Shown piece by piece: positions 580 through 20,814 of a stretch of DNA of 26,297 bases. Source of the DNA: a virus; IMG/VR virus record IMGVR_UViG_3300042518_000627, positions 1-26,297 of that record; one strand, 5' to 3'. The translations under genes and the position numbers were made by a program. The notes beneath the pieces are model-generated. The model was given only the letters and a program-made list of their open reading frames with translations, did no database searches and was not told the DNA's origin. How positions within the stretch are numbered: position 1 is the first letter of the stretch; each line of letters starts with the position of its first letter.

Positions 580-876
580 GTGCCGAAGGACCACGTTTTC
601 ACGCTGAACGGTGACGAACGCTGGCTCGTCCGCTGGACGACGCTCCAGGGCCAGGCCTACGGCATCACCTACACGCGGAAGGCGAAGCATCCCAGGATCG
701 TCCTGCATGACGGGATGAGGGGGAAACATCGCCTGACGATCCTGCTGCACGAGCTGTGCCACGCGATCTTTCCGCAGGCGAGCGAGGAAGTCATCGAGCA
801 GGCCGGAAAAGACCTGGCGAAGGTTCTGTGGGCTCACGGATACAGGGAGGTGCCTGATGCCAACGACGGGCGGTGA
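580..876 (+). CDS. Small HExxH zinc metallopeptidase-like protein
   Basis: The 98-residue protein carries LLHELCHAIF, a textbook HExxH zinc-binding and catalytic helix, near residues 51-60. It is followed by SEEVIEQAGKDL, whose glutamates could supply the third zinc ligand, as in gluzincin, SprT or IrrE-like minimal peptidases. A beta-rich segment precedes the helix. GTG 580 is chosen because a GGAAAG site sits just upstream; no earlier start fits better. The 3' end overlaps the metallophosphoesterase gene by 20 bp, so the two are probably co-translated. ImmA/IrrE-type phage peptidases cut repressors, but nothing here shows the substrate. Domain call solid, function inferred. Confidence 0.75.
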   Translation: MPKDHVFTLNGDERWLVRWTTLQGQAYGITYTRKAKHPRIVLHDGMRGKHRLTILLHELCHAIFPQASEEVIEQAGKDLAKVLWAHGYREVPDANDGR

Positions 877-1867
877 CGCGATTACGGCGATGGCTCGCAA
901 GTTGTGCAAGGCGCACCCAGACGCCCCGGCTCGGACGCTGGCTCGGCGGCTCGTCAAGGAGTCGAACAGGGCGATCACGCTGGAGCAGGCCCGTAGCAGG
1001 ATTCGTGCCCAGCTTGGCGTCAACGGAGCGAGGGAGCGCGTGAAGCGGAACGCAGCGGCCCCGCGTCCACCTCGAGCCGCCGGCGAGATCCTCGCCATGC
1101 CGAAGTCGATGGCCGAGCCGTGGACGCCGCACGTCCTCAACGTCCTCGGGCCGGTCGGGATCATCAGCGACGTACACGTCCCGTATCACTCCGAGATCGC
1201 CGTCGCCGCAGCAATCGGCTTCCTCAAGGATCAGAACCTCTCGGCCCTCCTGCTCAACGGTGACATCGCCGACTTCTACGCGATCAGCCGGTACATGAAA
1301 GATCCGAGCCAGCGGGACTTCAAAGCGGAGTTGGAGGCGGTGCGGTCGTTCATCGCATACCTCAGGCAAGAGTTCCCGGGCATCCCGATGGTGCTCAAGG
1401 AAGGCAATCACGAATACCGCTGGAAGTCGTGGCTGTTTCAGCACGCCGCCGAGATCAGCGACGACCCACGTATGAGCCTCGGGGCGTGGCTCGACCTAGA
1501 CAAGCACGGCGTCGAGCTCGTCGAGGACCAGCGGCCGATCATGCTCGGCAAGCTGCCCGTGTTCCACGGTCACGAACTGCCCCGCGGAATGGCTGCCCCG
1601 GTTAACGTCGCCCGTGGCGTCTGGATGCGAATGAAAGGCACTGGACTCGTCGGGCATCATCACCGGACGAGCAACCACGCCGAGAGCGATTGGCGGCACA
1701 CCGAGACGGCCAACTGGTCGGTCGGCTGCCTGTGCGACCTGACGCCGGAGTACGCCCGCATCAACGCTTGGAACCACGGATTCGCAGTCGCCACGCTCCA
1801 CAAGGGCGGCGCGTTCGACGTCAACAACTATCGGGTAATGGGTGACGGTACGGTTCGGTCTGCGTGA
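857..1867 (+). CDS. Calcineurin-like metallophosphoesterase
   Basis: This 336-residue protein shows the metallophosphoesterase metal-site motifs in order: SDVHVPYH (D105, H107), NGDIADF (D136), GNHEYR (N184, H185), HGHE (H237, H239) and GHHHRT (H267-H269). Together they form the two-metal phosphodiesterase or phosphatase centre. The first 90 residues are a basic, helical extension that could bind DNA. Phage members of this family often sit in nucleic-acid metabolism modules, acting as nucleases, phosphatases or 2',3'-cyclic phosphodiesterases; the substrate cannot be told here. It overlaps the metallopeptidase-like gene at its start and nearly touches the next gene. Confidence 0.9.
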   Translation: MPTTGGDAITAMARKLCKAHPDAPARTLARRLVKESNRAITLEQARSRIRAQLGVNGARERVKRNAAAPRPPRAAGEILAMPKSMAEPWTPHVLNVLGPVGIISDVHVPYHSEIAVAAAIGFLKDQNLSALLLNGDIADFYAISRYMKDPSQRDFKAELEAVRSFIAYLRQEFPGIPMVLKEGNHEYRWKSWLFQHAAEISDDPRMSLGAWLDLDKHGVELVEDQRPIMLGKLPVFHGHELPRGMAAPVNVARGVWMRMKGTGLVGHHHRTSNHAESDWRHTETANWSVGCLCDLTPEYARINAWNHGFAVATLHKGGAFDVNNYRVMGDGTVRSA

Positions 1868-10700: not shown

Positions 10701-10963
10701 CCGTCACCGACCTCGTCTGGATCGCAATCGGAGAACTGCTCCTGGCGGCGACGTTCGCCCTGGGGGTCTGTGTGGGTGTGACTCTCAAGCGAAAGGAATC
10801 GCACGATGACAACGGCAACGAAAGAACGGCGATCGTCGAGGAAAACGGCTGGTGGCACCTGTCTGACGGCGAGCGAACTGAAACGGGCTCTGCATGCCGT
10901 GGCCCCGGCGGTCGCTGCTCGCGGCGTCAAGCCGGTCTTGGCGAACGTCCTCCTCAGCGGTGA
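10697..10963 (+). CDS. Small single-span membrane protein overlapping dnaN
   Basis: This 88-residue frame begins in an ATGA overlap. Residues 5-30 (DLVWIAIGELLLAATFALGV onward) form a probable transmembrane helix followed by a basic KRKE. Residues 37-88 run in another frame across the first 158 bases of dnaN, a long overlap for this genome. The N-terminal part may be the functional piece and the tail merely read-through. A short lysis, anchoring or inhibitor protein is possible. The dnaN start has its own GAAAGGA site inside this gene. Confidence 0.5.
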   Translation: MTVTDLVWIAIGELLLAATFALGVCVGVTLKRKESHDDNGNERTAIVEENGWWHLSDGERTETGSACRGPGGRCSRRQAGLGERPPQR

Positions 10964-11930
10964 GACGCTGACGGCGACGGACCTCGAACTGCGGATCACG
11001 ACGCCGCTGGCCTATGCGGGCCCGGCGGTGCTGCTGCCGCATGCAAGGCTCTCGGCCATCGTCAACAGCCTGCCGGCGGACGCCGAGGTCACGCTGGCGC
11101 TCGACGGCTCGGCGTGCGTGGTGCGGGCTGGTCACGGCACGTGGCGGCTTCCTGTCGAGGACGCCAACGAGTTCCCTGTGGCCGGCGAGGTGGACGCCAA
11201 GCCGATTGCCCGGCTGCCCGGCGACCAGTTCGCCCAGCTGATGGGTGCGGTGCGGTTCGCCACGGACAACGAGTCGAGCCGCTACGCCCTCGGTGGCGTG
11301 CTGGTGTCGTTCGACGCCGGCATGCTGTCGCTGGTCGGCACGGACGGCCGGCGCATGTGCATCGCCCAGGTCGAGATCGACCAGGCGACGGACCAGGCCG
11401 CCGTGGTGGTGCCCAGGCGGGCGGTGGACGTCCTCTGCCGGCTGGCCCATGCGGGCGAGGTGGTGCAGCTGGAGGCCACGGGCAGCGAGCTCGTGGCGAC
11501 GGTGGACGGCACGGCTGTGCGGGCCCGGCTCGTCGAGGGCCGGTTCCCCAAGTGGCAGGACGTCGAGCCGAAGCGGGACACGCACGCCAGCCAGGTCGTG
11601 GTGGGCGAACTGCTGGCGACGTGCCGCCAGGCGGCGATCTGCACCAGCGAGCAGTCGAAGGGGGTGGTCTTCACGTTTGCTCGTGAAGGCCTGCACCTGA
11701 CGAGCCGGTCGGCCGAGGCCGGCGAGGCCAGTTGCACGTGCGACCTGGTCGAGTCTGGGCACGCCTGCACGGTGTCGCTCGACCCGGCGTTCGTCACCGA
11801 GTGGCTGGGCTGCGGGTCGTTCGACTTGCAGGAGACGATTGAGATCGAGGCGGCGGACGCCCAGTCGGCCGTCGTACTGCGGGCTCAGGACTGCCGCTGC
11901 GTCATCATGCCGCTGGACCCGAAGGGCTGA
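10806..11930 (+). CDS. dnaN: DNA polymerase III beta sliding clamp homolog
   Basis: The 374-residue protein is about the length of bacterial DnaN (366 in E. coli). It begins with the family pattern LKRALHAVAPAVAARGVKPV, then LLSGETLTATDLELRI near residues 50-65. It ends with CRCVIMPLDPKG, which corresponds to the C-terminal MPMRL-type pocket strand. The three-domain, two-layer clamp fold is therefore expected. It would tether host Pol III or other clamp clients to phage DNA. ATG 10806 has GAAAGGA at spacing 9. The gene overlaps a small membrane-protein frame at its 5' end. A DnaN encoded in a temperate phage early operon is unusual. Confidence 0.85.
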   Translation: MTTATKERRSSRKTAGGTCLTASELKRALHAVAPAVAARGVKPVLANVLLSGETLTATDLELRITTPLAYAGPAVLLPHARLSAIVNSLPADAEVTLALDGSACVVRAGHGTWRLPVEDANEFPVAGEVDAKPIARLPGDQFAQLMGAVRFATDNESSRYALGGVLVSFDAGMLSLVGTDGRRMCIAQVEIDQATDQAAVVVPRRAVDVLCRLAHAGEVVQLEATGSELVATVDGTAVRARLVEGRFPKWQDVEPKRDTHASQVVVGELLATCRQAAICTSEQSKGVVFTFAREGLHLTSRSAEAGEASCTCDLVESGHACTVSLDPAFVTEWLGCGSFDLQETIEIEAADAQSAVVLRAQDCRCVIMPLDPKG

Positions 11931-11933
11931 CGC

Positions 11934-12209
11934 ATGGACACGACCATCGACGTGCCACAGCTGTGCCGGCTCTGGCGTACCGAGGATCTGACTGTCTCGG
12001 AGGTGGCCCGCGAGTTGCGGGTTACCGCCGGGATGGTCTACCGGCTCGCGCGGCGGTACGGGCTCGAGCCAAGGAAGCCCGTGATGCGGGCGTTCTCAAT
12101 GGAGGATGCCGAGAGCCCCGAGGAGGAGGAGGCGTCGGCGGATTCGTTGGCGCTGGCACCTGCAGTGCAGAGGCGAATCGTGGAGTTGGGGTACGGCGGG
12201 CCGAGGTGA
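11934..12209 (+). CDS. Small helix-turn-helix protein with acidic tail
   Basis: Residues 16-47 of this 91-residue protein look like a resolvase-type HTH: EDLTVSEVARELRVTAGMVY then RLARRYGLEPRK. An acidic stretch (AESPEEEEASAD) follows, and then a helical end. It could be a DNA-binding regulator or terminase-small-subunit-like protein. It starts 3 bases after dnaN ends. Its stop codon overlaps the first bases of the first cassette-like hairpin at 12206, so that element was probably inserted at or close to the gene's end. Confidence 0.6.
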   Translation: MDTTIDVPQLCRLWRTEDLTVSEVARELRVTAGMVYRLARRYGLEPRKPVMRAFSMEDAESPEEEEASADSLALAPAVQRRIVELGYGGPR

Positions 12210-12297
12210 GAACGCCAGCGATCAGCGGCCCGCGACCTATGACCATGAACAAACCAACCGACGCTCTCGCGGGTCCGCTGCATTGCTTGGTTCTCAC
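12206..12297. repeat. attC-like imperfect hairpin, copy 1
   Basis: This 92-bp element begins GTGAGAAC and ends GTTCTCAC, its exact reverse complement. Inside, CAGCGG-CCCGCGA pairs with TCGCGGG-T-CCGCTG, leaving an extra unpaired T. Between these stems are partly paired bases and a variable loop. Short outer arms, inner arms with an extrahelical base, and a variable centre are the layout of integron attC sites. The ends do not fit the class 1 consensus GTTRRRY exactly. A MITE-like palindrome or structured RNA is the alternative. Confidence 0.5.
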
Positions 12298-12319
12298 GGC
12301 ATTCCTGCTGGCAGGGTCT

Positions 12320-12511
12320 ATGTGGACTTCAGAGCCTCGCGGGCAGGAATACGCTTTGCGGCATGGCGACACGGTGCTGTTTTGGATTCCCGACGAGCGA
12401 CAACCGGCCTATGGAGAGGTCTGCTATCTGTGGGGCTACGTTCCGGCGATTGTTAGCGGCAGCAAGACGTTTCGCTTTTGCGATGTGCAGTGGTGCTACG
12501 GTGGGCTGTAG
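12320..12511 (+). CDS. Small cassette-like ORF between the two hairpins
   Basis: This 63-residue ORF from ATG 12320 is unusual in composition, rich in Trp, Tyr and Cys (FWIPDERQPAYGEVCYLWGY, FRFCDVQWCYGGL), and matches no family I know. The frame stays open upstream to ATG 12240, but that start lies in the hairpin loop and would translate the repeat, producing a spurious hydrophobic stretch. An AGGG sits close to ATG 12320. It ends 6 bases before the second hairpin, as gene cassettes typically do. Confidence 0.4.
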   Translation: MWTSEPRGQEYALRHGDTVLFWIPDERQPAYGEVCYLWGYVPAIVSGSKTFRFCDVQWCYGGL

Positions 12512-12517
12512 ACACAA

Positions 12518-12608
12518 GTGAGAACGCCAGCGATCAGCGGCCCGCGACCGCTGACTTACCATTCCGGCAGACGGAATCGCGGGTCCGCTGCATCGTCTTG
12601 GTTCTGTG
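12518..12608. repeat. attC-like imperfect hairpin, copy 2
   Basis: The first 32 bases are identical to those of copy 1 and the right arm is nearly so, up to GGTTCT. The central loop differs, and the last bases (GTG rather than CAC) diverge. Identity ending just inside the GTT is what cassette recombination at attC would leave. Copy spacing is 312 bp, start to start. The extrahelical T in the inner right arm is conserved. Confidence 0.5.
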
Positions 12609-12625
12609 AGCGTAGAAAGGGAGAC

Positions 12626-12895
12626 ATGGACAACAACTGGCAACCAATCGAAACCGCACCGAAGGGCGGCACCGACATCCTTGTCGGCTGGTGGTCGGCG
12701 GGCGTGTGGTTTGTGAGAAACGCACGGTGGGACGATGGGTTCGACATCAACATCGGAGCCATCGACCCAGCGGGCGTGGGCTGGTGGTATCCCAACACCA
12801 GCGTCGGCACCTACAAGGTCTGCTGGGAGAACAACGCTGTGGACGGTCCGCAGTATTGGATGCCGATGCCGAAGCCTCCCGCAGAGTACAAGTAG
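12626..12895 (+). CDS. DUF551-like small protein (cassette-like)
   Basis: The 89-residue protein starts with NNWQPIETAPKGGTDILVGW and ends with GPQYWMPMPKPP. The pattern W-x-PIETAPK-G-T...HWMPLPxPP is the hallmark of DUF551, common in phages and prophages and of unknown function. AAAGGGAG precedes ATG 12626. It lies directly after the second attC-like hairpin, which would form its left boundary; a weaker attC-like structure at 12942-13000 could be its own site. Confidence 0.7.
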   Translation: MDNNWQPIETAPKGGTDILVGWWSAGVWFVRNARWDDGFDINIGAIDPAGVGWWYPNTSVGTYKVCWENNAVDGPQYWMPMPKPPAEYK

Positions 12896-12941
12896 CCCAC
12901 AGAACCAGTGTTTCTACGGACCTGGATAATCTCCCCCTGTC

Positions 12942-13000
12942 GGATAACGCCCAGACAAGTCGCGCCGCGCGGCCGCTAGGCGCAACGTGCGGACGTTACG
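12942..13000. repeat. Weaker attC-like structure after the DUF551-like ORF
   Basis: TAACG (12945-12949) pairs with CGTTA (12994-12998). Inside it, GCGCC (12962-12966) pairs with GGCGC (12979-12983), flanked by GT...AC. This gives two short stems with asymmetric unpaired stretches and a 12-base loop. The length and outer words resemble short integron attC sites, but sequence identity with the two larger copies is low. A competing CGTTAC...GTAACG hairpin occupies 12994-13013. Confidence 0.3.
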
Positions 13001-13045: not shown

Positions 13046-13444
13046 ATGGCGATCACGTTCACCGTGCCCGGTCAGCCGGTGCCGCAGCCGAGGCCTCGGG
13101 TCTCAACCCGTGGCGGCTTTGCTCGAGCCTACGTCCCGAGCCGGCATCCGGTGCATGAGTACCGCACGCTAATCGCAGCGGCAGCAAGGGACGCCGGACT
13201 CACTGACACCGGCGAGCCCCTGAATGTCGTCATTGACGCCGTCTTTCAGCGCCCGAAGTCGCACATGCGAAAGGCCGGCGTGAAGCCTGACGCCCCGAAG
13301 CTGCCGAGGCCCGACGTCGACAACATCGGCAAGGCAGTCCTAGACGCCCTCCAGGACGTGATGGGCGACGACACGAACGTCTTCCGCCTGGTCGTCGAGA
13401 AGTCCTACGGAGCGGAGGCACGCACAGTCGTGCGGATCTCGTGA
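13046..13444 (+). CDS. rusA: RusA-family Holliday junction resolvase
   Basis: The 132-residue endonuclease resolves four-way junctions late in phage recombination. The N-terminal FTVPGQPVPQPRPRVS is typical. The catalytic acidic cluster is seen as RPDVDNIGKAVLDAL (D90, D92, K96, D100) and MGDDT near 107. Length fits RusA (about 120-130). ATG 13046 is the only reasonable start, but it is blocked by a hairpin and lacks an RBS. The next gene overlaps its stop (GTGA). It probably cooperates with the upstream RecT. Confidence 0.88.
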   Translation: MAITFTVPGQPVPQPRPRVSTRGGFARAYVPSRHPVHEYRTLIAAAARDAGLTDTGEPLNVVIDAVFQRPKSHMRKAGVKPDAPKLPRPDVDNIGKAVLDALQDVMGDDTNVFRLVVEKSYGAEARTVVRIS

Positions 13445-14960: not shown

Positions 14961-15282
14961 CGTCCAGACGCTGCGGGTCCAGTGGGCATCGCACTCGTCG
15001 ATGTTCGCTATCTGCTCGTATTGGACGATCACGAAAGACCAGCTGATCCGCCTTCGTGACGTCGTTCCGCTGCCCAAGCGGCACGACCGGCGGTTGCGGT
15101 TCAAGCCCGAGCGCCAGCGTGATCCGACGCAGAGGGAAATCGCCCAAGCCTGCCGCGAGATCCAAGCCCGATGGGACGAGCACACCAGGCACGAGCGGCT
15201 GGTGTCGAAGCCGCAGGGGTTCCAGCTGCGGCAGATTGAGACGCCCGACGAACTGCGGCAGTACGTCGAGGGCGACCAGTGA
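14935..15282 (+). CDS. Unknown protein with basic helical half
   Basis: The 115-residue protein overlaps the preceding gene by 26 bp. The N-terminus is beta-like (AGITATINVQTLRVQW). The middle is very basic (KRHDRRLRFKPERQRDPTQR), followed by a charged helix (EIAQACREIQARWDEHTRHE). It ends with DELRQYVEGDQ. No family recognised; the basic helices might bind nucleic acid. Confidence 0.6.
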   Translation: MAGITATINVQTLRVQWASHSSMFAICSYWTITKDQLIRLRDVVPLPKRHDRRLRFKPERQRDPTQREIAQACREIQARWDEHTRHERLVSKPQGFQLRQIETPDELRQYVEGDQ

Positions 15283-15539
15283 GCGACTTCGGCACGCACG
15301 TCATCGGGAAGATCGTCATCGACTTCTCGCAGAAATACGCCAGCGTCTACATCTGCGACGGCGAGGGGAAGGTCCGCGACTCGGACCACTTCCGGTTCCC
15401 CTATGAGCTGACGCGGAAGGACGTCGTGTCCGAGGTCAACGACATGTACGCGATGGTCTACGACTGGTTAAACGACACGCTGAACGACGATTCGGATGAG
15501 GCTGCAAGGGAAGGCGATCCCCCTGCGACAACGGACTAG
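15279..15539 (+). CDS. Small unknown acidic protein
   Basis: This 86-residue protein starts at GTG 15279 in a GTGA overlap. It is acidic, especially at the end (DTLNDDSDEAAREGD), with a probable beta sheet early (HVIGKIVIDFSQKYASVYIC). No domain is recognised. It is kept because of overlap coupling and normal codon bias. Confidence 0.6.
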   Translation: MSDFGTHVIGKIVIDFSQKYASVYICDGEGKVRDSDHFRFPYELTRKDVVSEVNDMYAMVYDWLNDTLNDDSDEAAREGDPPATTD

Positions 15540-15555: not shown

Positions 15556-15861
15556 ATGCCGGCCTTTGAAATGACGCCCGAGGAAGTCGGGCAGTACGGT
15601 GCGAGCCTCTCGATCTGGGAGAAGCTGCTGCTGATCCAGGCGTGGTCTCCGCTCCTGGCCTACGGGCAGCGGTTCATGGCCGCGTCCGATCCGTTCGCCA
15701 AGGCCGTCATCGTCTCGGAGTGTGCGGAATGGCTCGCAAGCAAGACGGACAGCGGCCTCGACAACGAACTGGTAAAGCATCTCGCCGACGTGCTGAAAAC
15801 GCCGCAGGGCGAAGCCCTCGTCCGGTGGGCCGTCAGCAAGGCCGAAGGACGCCGAGCGTGA
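15556..15861 (+). CDS. Small unknown helical protein
   Basis: This 101-residue protein begins at ATG 15556, with a canonical AGGAGGT 6 bases upstream, better than the in-frame TTG upstream. It is helical throughout (IWEKLLLIQAWSPLLAYGQR, KAVIVSECAEWLASKT, VKHLADVLKTPQGEALVRW). It may be a structural, membrane-associated or nucleic-acid protein. Coupled by GTGA to the next gene. Confidence 0.65.
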   Translation: MPAFEMTPEEVGQYGASLSIWEKLLLIQAWSPLLAYGQRFMAASDPFAKAVIVSECAEWLASKTDSGLDNELVKHLADVLKTPQGEALVRWAVSKAEGRRA

Positions 15862-16466
15862 ACACCGATGACGTTCTTCGCATCGCTGCCGCGTCTACTG
15901 CGGTTGCTTTACTCCTTGCTCCCTACTGGCGGCAAGTCGCAGCCGCCAGCCACCGTGCGGTGGAAGCCGCAATACAAAGGGCCGGCACCCTTGCCAGGGT
16001 CGCCGCCGCGGCCCTCCTGATCGCTGCCGCCTGGGGCAAGGTGCCGCTGCCGCGGTGGCCGCAGGCGGCTGTCGCACCCGTGTCCGTCGAGACGCCGAGC
16101 GTTGAGATGCAAGCTCTTGTCGCCCCGATTGCCGAAGCCATGCGGAACGTGTCGCCCGTGGACCGTGCTCTGTGGGCCGAGACGTGGACGAAGGCGGCAA
16201 CCGTCGTGGCCGGCGACGCCGTGACCGTCGAGGTGGCGTTCACTGACACGCGGAGTCTGCGGGCGTTCACCGCCTTGGCCCTCGACATCGCATGGCGGCG
16301 GATCGGCCGGCACCAGCCGGGCGGCAACGAATCGCTCAGGACGGCCCTGGAGGCCGCCTACGGGCAGGCAATCGGCGCGACCGTGATTCCGGTCACGCCA
16401 GACCTGCGAGCCCGCTATGTGGAGTTTGCGAAGGCCGTGGCGTGGGCCGGCGTCGGCAAGGGGTGA
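15858..16466 (+). CDS. Membrane-anchored unknown protein
   Basis: Residues 6-24 (VLRIAAASTAVALLLAPYW) and 48-63 (RVAAAALLIAAAWGKV) of this 202-residue protein are probable membrane helices. The rest is soluble, Ala-rich and helical (IAEAMRNVSPVDRALWAETW, SLRAFTALALDIAWRRIG). It starts at GTG in a GTGA overlap. Its location just before the papain-like peptidase suggests the lysis or cell-envelope module, but its role is open. Confidence 0.6.
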   Translation: MNTDDVLRIAAASTAVALLLAPYWRQVAAASHRAVEAAIQRAGTLARVAAAALLIAAAWGKVPLPRWPQAAVAPVSVETPSVEMQALVAPIAEAMRNVSPVDRALWAETWTKAATVVAGDAVTVEVAFTDTRSLRAFTALALDIAWRRIGRHQPGGNESLRTALEAAYGQAIGATVIPVTPDLRARYVEFAKAVAWAGVGKG

Positions 16467-16469
16467 CCG

Positions 16470-17384
16470 ATGGCCGACTTCCTGCCACTGATGGGCTACG
16501 TGCCGGATCGGGCCGGCACCGAGCGTTTCCTGTCGTCGTTGCCAAAGCCGACGCTCGCCGAAGCCGGGCCTGACCTCGCACTCGACACGTCCCGCGACGT
16601 GTTTCTCGGTTCGGCACTCCTGAAGTGCGAGCCCGGCTGGAAGCGTGGAGCCCAGAAGATCGGGTCGTGTGTCGGCTGGGGCTGGGCTCTCTCCTGCGAC
16701 ATCCTCGCGGCGTGCGACATCCACCTTCGCAACGAGCCGGAGGTCTACGGCGGCCGGGTGCTCGAGGCCAGCGTCTACGCCTTCTCCCGTGTCGAGGTTC
16801 GGGGCCAGCGGAACCTCGGCGGCGACGGCTCTTACGGCGGCGCGGCTGCGAAGGCCGTGACGAAGTACGGCACGCTCCACTACGGCATCGACTACGGCGG
16901 GGAGACGTTCAACGACAACAGCGGACCGAGAGAGAAGGAATGGGGCCGCGACGGCGTGCCTGACCGCCTGGAGAAGTACGCCGCGAACCACAAGGTCTCA
17001 ACGGTCGCCCTCGTCACGACATTCGAGGACGCCGCGAAGGCGATCCAGAACGGTTACCCCGTGGCCGTCTGCTCAATGCAGGGCTTCTCCATGACCCAGC
17101 GTGAGGGCTACCTGTCGCCGATGGGCCAGTGGGCTCACTGCATGATGTTCGCGGGCGTGAAGTGGAAGCCCTACCCGGCCCTGCTCTGCGTCAACAGCTG
17201 GGGCGAGTGCTACTCGGGCGACGTCGACAAGACGCTGCCCCCGCAGTTCCAGCGGTCTTCGGGGTGGGTGCGGTCGGAGACCTGCACTCGGATGCTCAAA
17301 GGAGAAGACTCGTTTGCCCTCTCGGGCTACTCGGGGTTCGCCCCCCGCACGATGCCCGACAACTGGCTGGAGGGCATCCTGTGA
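16470..17384 (+). CDS. Papain-fold (C1A) cysteine peptidase
   Basis: The 304-residue protein has the papain core. It shows QKIGSCVGWGWALSC with Cys67 and an upstream Gln62, GGDGSYGGAAAKAV, and QNGYPVAVCS, a match to the PVAV strand. QWAHCMMFAGV supplies His223, and LCVNSWGECY the conserved Asn242-Ser-Trp-Gly. The active site is intact. No signal peptide or propeptide is visible. In phages C1A peptidases are rare. Its place before lipoprotein and holin-like genes suggests cell-wall or envelope lysis. Processing of virion proteins or attack on host proteins are alternatives. Confidence 0.85.
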   Translation: MADFLPLMGYVPDRAGTERFLSSLPKPTLAEAGPDLALDTSRDVFLGSALLKCEPGWKRGAQKIGSCVGWGWALSCDILAACDIHLRNEPEVYGGRVLEASVYAFSRVEVRGQRNLGGDGSYGGAAAKAVTKYGTLHYGIDYGGETFNDNSGPREKEWGRDGVPDRLEKYAANHKVSTVALVTTFEDAAKAIQNGYPVAVCSMQGFSMTQREGYLSPMGQWAHCMMFAGVKWKPYPALLCVNSWGECYSGDVDKTLPPQFQRSSGWVRSETCTRMLKGEDSFALSGYSGFAPRTMPDNWLEGIL

Positions 17385-17653
17385 GGTGGCTCATTTGCTT
17401 CTGTGTCGTGTTCGTCGGCTGCGTCGCCTCATTGCCGGGCGACCACGGCGTGACTGCTGACCTCGCCTGCGAGACGGCACGCATGGTGGTCAAGCTGCGG
17501 CACGAGATCGCCCCGGCCCCGAAATCGGACAAGTGCGAGAACTGCGACGGCACGGGCAAGCTCGGAGACGGGCGGATCGTCACCGTCTGCCCCATCTGCA
17601 AAGGCACCGGCAAGGCCGTCAAGAGCGTCTGCGTCGAGGGGTGCAAGCCGTGA
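17381..17653 (+). CDS. Cys-rich small lipoprotein with DnaJ-type zinc motif
   Basis: This 90-residue protein starts with a short hydrophobic signal ending in FVGC, a lipobox-like cleavage site. Residues 52-79 hold two Cys-x2-Cys-x-GTG repeats (CENCDGTG, CPICKGTG), the pattern of the DnaJ zinc centre. Start GTG 17381 lies in a GTGA overlap with the peptidase. A zinc-binding lipoprotein could be an Rz1-like spanin piece or an immunity-type protein, but family assignment is unclear. Confidence 0.6.
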   Translation: MRWLICFCVVFVGCVASLPGDHGVTADLACETARMVVKLRHEIAPAPKSDKCENCDGTGKLGDGRIVTVCPICKGTGKAVKSVCVEGCKP

Positions 17654-18012
17654 CCCTCACCGACCTCCAATCCCAGTGCTGGGCCGCACTCCCGCCGCTC
17701 CGCAAGCGGCTTGTGGGCCGCGAGACGGTCGACGACATCGTTGAGCTCGCCGTGCAGAACTGGGAGGGCGAATATCTCAACGCCTGCCAGGACAACGCAC
17801 AGCGGCAGGTCTACGTCTCGGCGCTGCTCGGCCACATCAAGCGATGCCACCAGGTCGCCAGCGGCAAGGACGCCACGGAATACGGGTTCCTCTGGGTGAT
17901 CCTCCTGCAAGCCGTCGCGGTCGCTGCCGTACAGTGGCTTGTGAAGTGGTGGCTGGACCGCAGGGCGAACCGGGCACTGATGACCGTCTGGCACCATGAG
18001 TTGACGCGATGA
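17650..18012 (+). CDS. Small single-span membrane protein
   Basis: This 120-residue protein has a soluble helical N-terminus (TDLQSQCWAALPPLRKRLVG, DDIVELAVQNWEGEYL). A strongly hydrophobic segment follows near residues 81-105 (GFLWVILLQAVAVAAVQWLV). It ends in a basic cytoplasmic-like tail (KWWLDRRANRA). GTG start in a GTGA overlap. It may be a spanin, antiholin or membrane adapter of the lysis module. Confidence 0.6.
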   Translation: MTLTDLQSQCWAALPPLRKRLVGRETVDDIVELAVQNWEGEYLNACQDNAQRQVYVSALLGHIKRCHQVASGKDATEYGFLWVILLQAVAVAAVQWLVKWWLDRRANRALMTVWHHELTR

Positions 18013-18251
18013 CACGAGAGGAAATCGGCGGGACGTTTGCCAGCATCATGGAGCGCTGGGGTTTTCCAGTGCTCGTCGCGGCTGCATGTGGCTACGTTTT
18101 GAGAGCCGATGTCCTTTTACCGCTCGTTGAGGAACACAGGGCCTTCGTGAAACAACTGGGCGAGACGCAACGCGAGATCAGCCAAGCCATCACCGAGCAG
18201 ACGCGGCTGCTCTATGCGTTGCAGCCACGGGCGACCGTCGAGAAGGAATAG
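18009..18251 (+). CDS. Holin-like small membrane protein
   Basis: The 80-residue protein has one or two hydrophobic stretches between residues 18 and 40 (WGFPVLVAAACGYVLRADVL) and a charged helical C-terminus (EEHRAFVKQLGETQREISQA). Length, topology and position after peptidase and spanin-like genes fit a holin or related membrane protein. Starts with ATGA overlap. Holins cannot be confirmed from sequence alone. Confidence 0.6.
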   Translation: MTREEIGGTFASIMERWGFPVLVAAACGYVLRADVLLPLVEEHRAFVKQLGETQREISQAITEQTRLLYALQPRATVEKE

Positions 18252-18254
18252 GCC

Positions 18255-18950
18255 ATGCCGATGGACCCACGACTGATGCGGCCGAAGCGGCGTGCGGCCG
18301 GCGATCCGTATTGGGCCAATGTCGCACTGCTGCTGCACTTCGACGGCCCGTCGTTCGTGGACTCGTCGTCCAACAACCTGACGGTGACGGCGAACGGCGT
18401 CACACAGACGACGGCGCAGAGCAAGTTCGGAGGCAAGAGCGGCCACTTCGAAGGCAGCGAAAGTCTCGCCGTGCCGGCTGGCAGCGACTTCGCCTATGGC
18501 ACGGGAGACTTCACGATCGAGGCGTGGATCTACCGCACAAGCACGTCAGGCGACACGACGGTCTTTTCGCAGACCGAGTCTGGCACGAACTATGTTTTAT
18601 TTGGCGTCAATAGCTCCAGCAAAGTGGTTTTTATTGGCACGGACTCTGGCGGCGGTGACGCGATTGAAGGCCCTGCCGGAAATCTTGTCGCCGCCAATAC
18701 ATGGCACCACGTTGCCGTTGTGCGGGCTTCTGGCGACGTGACGGTCTACTGCGACGGCGTCGGCGGCACGGCGACAGAGAACACGATGGACTTCGACGAC
18801 ACGACGTGGGTGCCGACGGTCGGCAGTTACACACACTCAAGCGACGACTCTTTCGTCGGCTACATCGACGAACTCCGCGTCACCAAGGGCGTCGCCCGCT
18901 ACACCGGCGAGAGCTTCCCGGTTCCCACCGCACCATTCCCGAACGGGTGA
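18255..18950 (+). CDS. LamG-like (concanavalin A fold) virion protein
   Basis: The 231-residue protein matches the laminin-G-like jelly-roll: NVALLLHFDGPSFVDSS at about residues 22-38, GDFTIEAWIYR at 86-96, ANTWHHVAVVRASG near 148-161 and VGYIDELRVTKGVARYTG at 201-218. This domain is common at the tips of phage fibres and binds carbohydrate. The short N-terminus is basic. It begins a run of likely receptor-binding or fibre genes. Confidence 0.8.
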   Translation: MPMDPRLMRPKRRAAGDPYWANVALLLHFDGPSFVDSSSNNLTVTANGVTQTTAQSKFGGKSGHFEGSESLAVPAGSDFAYGTGDFTIEAWIYRTSTSGDTTVFSQTESGTNYVLFGVNSSSKVVFIGTDSGGGDAIEGPAGNLVAANTWHHVAVVRASGDVTVYCDGVGGTATENTMDFDDTTWVPTVGSYTHSSDDSFVGYIDELRVTKGVARYTGESFPVPTAPFPNG

Positions 18951-18953
18951 CGT

Positions 18954-19268
18954 ATGCCATCGTATGACCAGACACCTGGATCGCTGAATTTGTCGTTCGC
19001 ACGCTCCGACGACTTCTCGGCGCTCATCGACTTCTCAATCTCAATGTCGGGGTACACCGTCACCGCCGGCATGACCTCGCTCGTCACGGGCTCGGAGGTG
19101 CAGCCGCTCACCGTGTCTTTCGTCTCGGCGACCGCCGGGCAGGTCAGCGTGTCGCTGACCGACACGCAGACGGCCGCCCTTGCCCGTGGCACCTACGGGT
19201 GGCGCATGACGTGGGTTGAGAGCAACGCCACTCGCACGGCCCTCACCGGATTCGTGGAGGTGCTGTAG
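18954..19268 (+). CDS. Beta-rich virion-type small protein
   Basis: This 104-residue protein looks like a single beta sandwich, with alternating Thr/Ser/Val strands (YTVTAGMTSLVTGSE, PLTVSFVSATAGQVSVSL). It ends with ARGTYGWRMTWVESNAT and GFVEVL, a pattern seen in BppU-like or baseplate/fibre N-terminal modules. It sits between LamG and collagen-like fibre genes, and its stop overlaps the next start (TAGTG). Confidence 0.6.
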   Translation: MPSYDQTPGSLNLSFARSDDFSALIDFSISMSGYTVTAGMTSLVTGSEVQPLTVSFVSATAGQVSVSLTDTQTAALARGTYGWRMTWVESNATRTALTGFVEVL

Positions 19269-19975
19269 TGACGATTCAAGCGAACGTCAGCGGCGGGCAG
19301 CAGATCACGGCGACCGTCGGCGAGACGCAGATCGACGTGAGCGTCAGCGGTGGCGTGGGGCCTGCCGGGCCTGCCGGGAGCGTCGGTCCGCAGGGGCCGG
19401 CCGGGCCGCAGGGAGCGCAGGGGCCGGCGGGAGCAGCCGGCACGACGGACTACACGCAGCTGACGAACGTGCCGAGCACGTTTACGCCGGCTGCACATAA
19501 CCAGGCGTGGTCGACGATCACCTCGACGCCGACGACGCTCTCCGGCTACGGCATCACCGACGCCGTCGCGTCCAGCGACTCGCGGCTCACTGACGCGAGG
19601 ACGCCCACGGCGCACGTCCACTCTGGGGCCGACATTACAAGCGGCACCGTCGCTGCCGCTCGCCTCCCCGTCGTCCTCGAGCAGACGCACACGGTGGGCA
19701 ACAGCGGCACCTCTACGACGCTGGCCTTGACCACCGGCTCCGTGCAGACGGTCACGCTCAACGGCAACTGCACCTTCACCATGCCTACCGCGACAGCTGG
19801 GGCTTCGATCACGCTGATCCTCACGCAGGGCGGCACCAACACGGCGACGTTTACCGGCGTCCTATGGCCTGGCGGGACCGCCCCAACGATCACGGCGACG
19901 GCGAACAAAGTGGACGTCCTAGTCTTCGTCAGCAACGGCACTTCGTGGTTCGGTACGGCCTCGCAGAATCACTAA
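19268..19975 (+). CDS. Collagen-repeat tail-fibre-like protein
   Basis: The 235-residue protein has an N-terminal beta part, then about 10 Gly-x-y triplets (GPAGPAGSVGPQGPAGPQG and on, about residues 31-60), a collagen-like trimeric stalk. A fibre segment with repeated TPTTLSGYGITDAVASSDS and HVHSGADITSGTVAAAR follows. The last 90 residues (VTLNGNCTFTMPTATAG, LVFVSNGTSWFG) are a typical C-terminal phage tail-fibre beta domain. It probably forms a trimeric side fibre binding the host surface. Confidence 0.78.
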   Translation: MTIQANVSGGQQITATVGETQIDVSVSGGVGPAGPAGSVGPQGPAGPQGAQGPAGAAGTTDYTQLTNVPSTFTPAAHNQAWSTITSTPTTLSGYGITDAVASSDSRLTDARTPTAHVHSGADITSGTVAAARLPVVLEQTHTVGNSGTSTTLALTTGSVQTVTLNGNCTFTMPTATAGASITLILTQGGTNTATFTGVLWPGGTAPTITATANKVDVLVFVSNGTSWFGTASQNH

Positions 19976-20814
19976 TGCTCGCAGGAAAGATCGGATTTTT
20001 CCGCGCACCGGCAACGCCCGCCGCCACGGCTGTCGACGGCAGCAACAACACCATCTCGCCGGTGGACTACACGGCGGACGGCGTCCAGTGGCGAGCGTTT
20101 ATCTTTAACACTAGCGGCACGCTCACGTTCTCTCGCGGCGGGGAAGTCGAGTATCTCATCGCAGCCGGCGGTGGTGGTGGTGGCTCGCACTTTGCCGGTG
20201 GCGGCGGCGCTGGTGGTTTGCGTACTGGCAGCGCCACCGTGATCGCACAGGGCTACGCCGTTACGGTGGGCGCTGGAGGCTCCGGGGCGGCCTGGAATGG
20301 CACGTTCGGTGTGCAGGGCGGCGACGGCAATAGCTCATCCGCACTGAGCATCTCGGCGACCGGCGGCGGTGGTGGCGGTGCGAGAGGTCTGTCCAACCAG
20401 CAGCAACCGGGCCGGTCTGGCGGGTCTGGCGGCGGCGGCGGAAACAATCCATCGGCGGCCACTTCGGCGGGCAGCGGAACATCAGGGCAGGGCAACAGTG
20501 GCGGCACCGGATTCGACTCGGGCGGTAACTCTGCTGGTGGTGGTGGTGGCGGCGCTGGCGGTGCTGGCGGCAACGCTGCCAGTGCGGCCGGAGGAGCGCG
20601 TGGCGCTGGGTCGTCGTCCTCCATTTCTGGCACGGCGACAACCTATTGCCAGGGTGGCGGCGGCTCGTCGTCTGGAACTGCTGGGATTGGCGGCGGTGCC
20701 TCGAGTGGGCGAGGCGGGACCGCGAACAGAGGAGGCGGTGGTGCTGGCGGAAACAGTAGCGTCACCGGCGGCGCTGGTGGGAGTGGCGTCGTTGTAGTGC
20801 GATTTCGGAGGTAG
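19975..20814 (+). CDS. Glycine-rich virion protein
   Basis: The 279-residue protein has a globular start (LAGKIGFFRAPATPAATAVD). Then VEYLIAAGGGGGGSHFAGG and many short Gly/Ser/Ala repeats follow up to GGAGGSGVVVVRFRR. This pattern is the glycine-rich domain of phage adhesion tips, whose polyglycine-II sandwiches bind receptors. The reading frame is open and the low-complexity DNA (20160-20790) is GGN-rich, so sequencing errors are more likely here. Starts in a TAATG overlap. Confidence 0.75.
   Translation: MLAGKIGFFRAPATPAATAVDGSNNTISPVDYTADGVQWRAFIFNTSGTLTFSRGGEVEYLIAAGGGGGGSHFAGGGGAGGLRTGSATVIAQGYAVTVGAGGSGAAWNGTFGVQGGDGNSSSALSISATGGGGGGARGLSNQQQPGRSGGSGGGGGNNPSAATSAGSGTSGQGNSGGTGFDSGGNSAGGGGGGAGGAGGNAASAAGGARGAGSSSSISGTATTYCQGGGGSSSGTAGIGGGASSGRGGTANRGGGGAGGNSSVTGGAGGSGVVVVRFRR

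Follow-up and report, generated by a model that had tools for sequence, protein, structure and literature searches.

A papain-fold peptidase cassette of uncultured phages as a candidate protease-based lysis module

Introduction

Double-stranded DNA phages are, to our knowledge, generally thought to need a peptidoglycan-degrading enzyme in order to leave their host. The known SAR endolysins and the holin-dependent endolysins both degrade peptidoglycan. Cysteine enzymes of the papain superfamily are represented among the enzymes of phage exit by endolysins of the CHAP and NlpC/P60 type, and the same superfamily contains PeiW and PeiP, pseudomurein endoisopeptidases of Methanothermobacter, which are linked to the lysis of cells that have no ordinary peptidoglycan wall (PMC10318531). 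In the literature searched, no paper was found on C1A peptidases, the papain-type proteases proper, as phage lysins.

The present study concerns a gene cassette around such a peptidase in a 26,297-base virus record (IMG/VR IMGVR_UViG_3300042518_000627, positions 1-26,297), referred to in full as the window, which is a fragment ending inside the major capsid gene. An earlier sequence-only reading had proposed that a papain-like peptidase takes the place in which an endolysin is expected, either as an unusual lysin, perhaps suited to an envelope that contains little peptidoglycan, or as a virion-maturation enzyme.

Results

Gene layout of the window

The genes of the window form a single long row on the plus strand, with the integrase on the opposite strand. 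Recombination and replication genes are followed by glycosyltransferase-like genes and then by the cassette. After it come fibre-like genes, HNH, terminase, portal and prohead protease, and the row ends with the first part of the major capsid gene. The phage also encodes a homologue of the DNA polymerase III beta clamp (family 36), the G016 relative of which was matched by the beta-clamp domains of Pfam. The LamG, collagen-like and Gly-rich genes that follow the cassette vary from relative to relative, which is the expected behaviour of fibre or receptor-binding parts. Four ORFs span positions 16470-18251, the neighbouring frames sharing four bases (GTGA/ATGA), and the cassette reaches further upstream to take in the genes of fam3 and fam4 as well; the two small genes before these are perhaps outside the cassette proper. 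Table 1 gives an overview of the coordinates.

Table 1. Cassette genes of the window and further features in the window and in related records.
Record	Coordinates	Strand	Feature	Properties
Window	10806-11930		DNA polymerase III beta clamp homologue (family 36)	Phage-encoded
Window	15001..15539	+	Two further small genes (fam1, fam2)	93 and 86 aa; order before the cassette kept in the window branch
Window	15556..15861	+	Soluble protein (fam3)	101 aa; conserved close upstream in every related genome; also in the variant cassette (hhalign 99.7%)
Window	15858..16466	+	Protein with two helices (fam4)	202 aa; two Ala-rich hydrophobic helices
Window	16470..17384	+	Predicted papain-fold cysteine peptidase	304 aa; Q62 (oxyanion candidate), C67, H223, N242-S-W; from invariant residues, fold and dN/dS
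Window	17381..17653	+	Cys-rich putative lipoprotein (fam16)	90 aa; hydrophobic lipobox-like N-terminal stretch MRWLICFCVVFVGC, ending G-C
Window	17650..18012	+	Small protein (fam6)	120 aa; single hydrophobic helix at about residues 80-98; in 10/10 related genomes and in the variant cassette
Window	18009..18251	+	Small protein (fam21)	80 aa; N-terminal hydrophobic helix, then charged helix
Window	18255-20814		LamG, collagen-like and Gly-rich genes	After the cassette
L260; L262	6262-7131; 2354-3244		Variant-cassette protein of 289-296 aa at the place of the peptidase	Papain-like motifs by eye (C..H..D-S-Y)
L260; L262; L274	7128-7910; 3241-4023; 6748-7566		Cys-rich zinc-motif protein fused to PF13365 trypsin-like domain	
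L195; L197; L127	7132-7362; 2406-2636; 10927-11184		Small multi-helix protein	Inserted after the peptidase
G016; L077; G319	13047-13367 (oriented); 390-692; 858-1247		Family 22	Small secreted-looking protein
G016 (L033-L035)	12203-12982 (oriented)		Trypsin-family protein	Signal-like N-terminus

The peptidase

The sequence-only reading had recognised a C1A fold from motifs, with Cys67, His223 and Asn242 intact, and the alignments and structural models bear out both points. The residues Q62, G65, C67, W70, H223, N242, S243 and W244 are invariant in 53 sequences, the identity of which to the window protein goes down to 31%, and C67, H223 and N242 are also invariant in 28 close sequences. Conservation of the peptidase exceeds chance, as seen from these invariant catalytic residues and from a dN/dS of about 0.12-0.21 against seven relatives, and since the catalytic residues and the sequence as a whole are conserved, it is probably active.

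Searches of Pfam, PHROGs and the PDB sequences with the window peptidase gave no significant match, and the PF00112 sequence profile did not match it either, so that its assignment here follows the fold and not Pfam membership. In a profile search of the PDB sequences, papain was the best match, a weak one (E 0.28) with the NSWG motif in register. AlphaFold2 models were computed from the 28-sequence alignment (pLDDT 64) and from the 53-sequence alignment (pLDDT 78, pTM 0.85), and the models from both match C1A structures. A Foldseek search, the structure-based check suggested in the earlier reading, returned xylellain with an E of 4.7e-7, and VIA aligned the 53-sequence model with xylellain (PDB 3ois) with a Z of 18.4 over 230 residues and an rmsd of 3.1 Å, the first model reaching a Z of 14.7; the rows in the VIA structure listing are C1A-type cysteine proteases. 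On the strength of these models, we regard a papain (C1A-type) fold of the window protein as nearly certain. In the predicted model, C67 starts a helix of residues 67-86, and Q62 lies five residues before it. The peptidases of the window branch have neither a signal peptide nor a membrane helix, and in several first-branch records the open frame is too short upstream for a longer N-terminus.

Partner proteins

A Cys-rich lipoprotein and two small membrane proteins, which the earlier reading had placed after the peptidase, are also seen in our analysis of ORFs and hydropathy, the lipoprotein being putative. After its N-terminus, the Cys-rich protein contains a double CxxCxGxG motif as in a DnaJ-like zinc centre, and thiol chemistry as a role of the CxxC motifs is speculation. 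Read from hydropathy and the lipobox-like G-C stretch, the cassette may contain a pair made up of an inner-membrane-helix protein and a putative outer-membrane lipoprotein, with no match to a spanin family; by its architecture, the fam21 protein may be holin-like or inner-spanin-like. Searched against Pfam, PHROGs and NCBIfam, none of the cassette proteins could be assigned to a described family of holins, spanins or endolysins, and the same three libraries gave no established catalytic or wall-binding domain of endolysins in the window peptidase. Some cassettes contain an additional small multi-helix protein directly after the peptidase, the L195 copy of which has a weak NCBIfam match to PRK10457 (E 3e-5); it is a possible substitute for a holin.

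Family, branches and distribution

A scan with the window protein yielded 31 loci, nearly all of them 69-88% identical or higher. Starting from a divergent copy on a MAG contig, a second branch of 118 relatives was uncovered, and according to the joint profile at least 575 IMG/VR viral contigs encode relatives of the peptidase. In the records searched, the relatives are found overwhelmingly in viral contigs and not mainly as secreted peptidases of hosts. A protein search of 50,697 named phage records revealed no relative of the peptidase and likewise none of three small cassette proteins searched in this way, and no description of the cassette was found in the papers, family libraries and named phages searched.

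Conservation of the neighbouring genes, another check proposed in the sequence-only reading, is pronounced: the cassette order is kept in 10/10 close genomes, with the succession fam1-fam2-fam3-fam4-peptidase-fam16-fam6-fam21 nearly unbroken across the ten, although by clustering fam16 was found in 9/10 and fam21 in 8/10 of them. All ten carry an integrase, as is typical of temperate phages. The second branch has a five-gene cassette, m2-m1-peptidase-p1-p2, the core of which (m2-m1-peptidase-p1) is present in most of 124 wider loci. The gene directly before the peptidase, m1, is homologous to fam4 of the window (hhalign 92.7%, E 4e-7), and p2 is probably homologous to the Cys-rich fam16, as judged from the profile comparison (hhalign 72.6%, E 3e-5). 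The two branches differ at the N-terminus of the peptidase, where hydropathy indicates an Ala/Gly-containing membrane helix in 34 of 35 second-branch members as opposed to none of 18 in the window branch.

Two further observations concern individual records. The small secreted-looking protein of family 22 is common to phages of all three peptidase branches and is absent from the window. In the L031/G023 record, most genes, the peptidase among them, contain frame breaks that have the look of decay or of sequencing errors, and the flanks of this record showed no recognisable host gene.

A variant cassette with a trypsin-like domain

Loci without the peptidase were found by searching with m2. Besides m2, this variant cassette contains a homologue of fam3 (99.7%), two small proteins of membrane or secreted type, a protein of 289 aa, a Cys-rich-Trypsin_2 fusion, and homologues of fam6 and fam21 (hhalign 94.6% and 96.5%, respectively). 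In the fusion, the Cys-rich zinc-motif protein is joined to a Trypsin_2 domain (PF13365) that was matched with E 3e-17 and 2e-21. In three loci (L274, L277, L281), the variant lies exactly between the prohead protease and the capsid gene, and the backbone genes are 41-76% identical to those of genomes with the peptidase cassette at the same locus. Because they are exchanged at one conserved locus in similar backbones, the peptidase and variant cassettes look like alternatives for one task, and as both contain a protease or a protease domain, proteolysis recurs.

The motifs of the protein in the peptidase position of the variant suggest a papain-like enzyme, but hhalign against the peptidase family gave only 0.3% and the PDB no match, so that no such assignment is made here. 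A separate Trypsin-family protein is encoded in G016, eleven genes upstream of the peptidase, and by clustering has members in G017 and G015 as well.

Search for another lysin and for the host

The earlier reading had seen no muramidase or amidase, and the gene-by-gene Pfam scans extend this to three relatives: among the proteins of G016, G317 and G319 there was no muramidase, amidase, CHAP, NlpC, M15, M23 or transglycosylase match, and no canonical endolysin was seen elsewhere in these phages, alongside many ordinary phage functions that were found; the gene calls for these scans came from a simple script, by which small genes may be missed. G317 is closed by a 127-base end repeat, and the ends of G016 overlap in gene content. 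In the latter, the first 5 kb and the last 3 kb have the same gene order and similar, non-identical sequence, as though a circular genome had been put together from strain variants. Targeted searches for PF01510, PF00959, PF01464 and PF13539 were positive in 0 of 16-22 records, with positive controls, and Pfam revealed no peptidoglycan-binding domain in the cassette members scanned. The relatives may nevertheless encode an unrecognised peptidoglycan hydrolase that has no Pfam match.

With regard to the host, no tRNA was found in 20 loci, the integrase has weak plasmid matches only, and the closest named-phage matches of the terminase and the phosphoesterase are too distant to name a host. A scan of bacterial genomes with patterns of the window branch gave matches in a single genome, an alphaproteobacterial MAG. 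It was rejected as host, as the matches are confined to a pair of short phage contigs and none of the other genomes examined from its class (289) and its phylum (398) matched. For planctomycetes, an older report describes a Cys- and Pro-rich protein wall (PMC3035269). A planctomycete host would fit a protein-cutting envelope enzyme. The description of the planctomycete wall as a protein wall has since been disputed.

Genome positions of the cassette

At least four genome positions were found for the cassette, and the backbones that carry it are siphovirus-like or podovirus-like. It lies between the recombination genes and the terminase, upstream of the fibre genes, in the window branch; it adjoins the prohead protease or the major capsid gene in 106 of the 124 second-branch loci; it is placed between the tail-end genes and the integrase in L195, L197 and L117; and in G319 it stands beside RusA and SprT genes in a podovirus-like gene set. 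A large distance separates it from the head genes in the window itself and also in 12 loci. Since the cassette moves as a block, its function is probably self-contained. Lysis genes often lie upstream of the terminase or between the tail genes and the integrase, as the cassette does in the window and in L195 and others, and a site inside the head genes is unusual for them.

Discussion

Proposed function

We propose that the cassette is an envelope-directed, protease-based module for lysis or exit, a reading whose chances we put at about even. It would serve host exit, or a breach of the envelope from the inside, by proteolysis. In most relatives, the papain-fold peptidase would reach the envelope by its own N-terminal membrane anchor; in the window branch, export would presumably proceed through a membrane hole formed by one of the small membrane proteins. 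The peptidase, together with the membrane- or lipid-anchored Cys-rich zinc-motif protein, would then cut envelope proteins or peptide cross-links, and bursting of the cell would follow. The suggestion of an unusual lysin in the sequence-only reading gains indirect support from the membrane proteins of the cassette, its lysis-type positions, the anchor of most relatives and the lack of a recognisable hydrolase in the three relatives scanned, while the missing export signal in the window branch counts against a lysis module. More tentative, and rather doubtful as a whole, is the wider claim that this is the entire lysis module of hundreds of uncultured phages without a peptidoglycan hydrolase, which would break the envelope with proteases (papain-fold or, in the variant, trypsin-bearing) and the membrane-anchored Cys-rich zinc protein, in hosts with a protein-held envelope.

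The membrane anchor of most relatives, the integrase of the temperate close relatives and the shifting of the cassette between genome positions in the manner of a moron would also suit envelope modification or superinfection exclusion, in which an anchored peptidase cuts host surface proteins in infection or lysogeny, so as to keep other phages out or to change the host, and no lysis results. We consider this unlikely, as the cassette occurs in every close relative instead of patchily, is located inside the late structural operon in most loci, and would leave no recognisable lysis enzyme for the exit step.

The vicinity of the prohead protease or capsid gene in the majority of the second-branch loci, and of fibre-like genes with LamG, collagen and Gly-rich domains in the window, could also indicate a peptidase for virion maturation or one carried in the virion for head assembly or entry. 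However, the HK97-type genomes keep a prohead protease of their own (a separate Peptidase_S78 in G016 and G317, the family of which, family 10, is present in 10/10 close genomes), most relatives are membrane-anchored, and the cassette is found both far from the head genes and in a podovirus-like backbone with different head genes. The virion-maturation enzyme of the earlier reading is therefore disfavoured, and we regard it as quite improbable.

A lysis cassette of the conventional kind would differ from known ones in its catalytic domain only, the papain-fold enzyme cutting stem peptides or cross-bridges of peptidoglycan in the manner of CHAP and NlpC/P60. Other families of the papain superfamily are well-known phage lysins (PMC10318531), and among phage proteins predicted to fold similarly, some have titles naming them peptidoglycan-binding, N-acetylmuramidase or Lysin A, which concerns their titles only. 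Against this stand the match of the fold to C1A proteases with the NSW motif, which are mainly protein cutters, the lack of a peptidoglycan-binding domain in the members scanned, and the trypsin-type domain of the variant cassette, so that we allow it only a slim chance. Least probable of all is that the peptidase destroys a defence or regulatory protein inside the host cell and the membrane proteins serve another purpose, for although phages do encode proteases against host proteins and the window branch has no export signal, 34/35 second-branch members have a membrane anchor and the peptidase is tightly coupled to membrane and lipoprotein genes in all branches.

If the envelope-directed lysis module is real, a widespread proteolytic module would be a new answer to the question of how tailed phages lyse cells; it would suggest that the hosts have an unusual envelope, and it would add a class of lysis enzymes that is absent from the annotation libraries searched. 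Even if the function is not lysis, there is a clear annotation gap: the cassette is found in at least 575 viral contigs, has no recorded function and is represented in none of the 50,697 named phage records.

Comparison with known systems

Among the described enzymes, the C1A peptidases xylellain (3ois), cathepsin B and papain share with the window protein the overall predicted fold, the Cys-His-Asn order, and the NSW motif, and a candidate oxyanion-type Gln precedes the Cys. The window protein is distinguished from them by a divergence so high that neither Pfam nor PHROGs nor the PDB sequences gave a significant match, and by its location in a phage cassette. The distance from this Gln to the Cys is 6 in papain as opposed to 5 in the window protein. 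CHAP and NlpC/P60 endolysins are likewise papain-superfamily cysteine enzymes and serve phage exit, but Pfam matched neither family in the cassette proteins or in the three genomes G016, G317 and G319. PeiW and PeiP, which are likened here by description, differ in belonging to family C71 of the transglutaminase-like group, in having a known substrate and in their archaeal hosts.

The presence of a predicted N-terminal Ala/Gly membrane anchor in the cassette enzyme of some phages and its absence in others resembles the division into SAR and holin-dependent endolysins. The cassette resembles the Rz/Rz1 spanin pairs in its small lipoprotein-like gene and its gene for a small protein with a predicted N-terminal membrane helix and a helical tail, which follow the enzyme in overlapping frames. 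Unlike Rz/Rz1, the lipoprotein-like product, which has no family match, carries a Cys-rich zinc motif and in the variants is fused to a serine protease domain.
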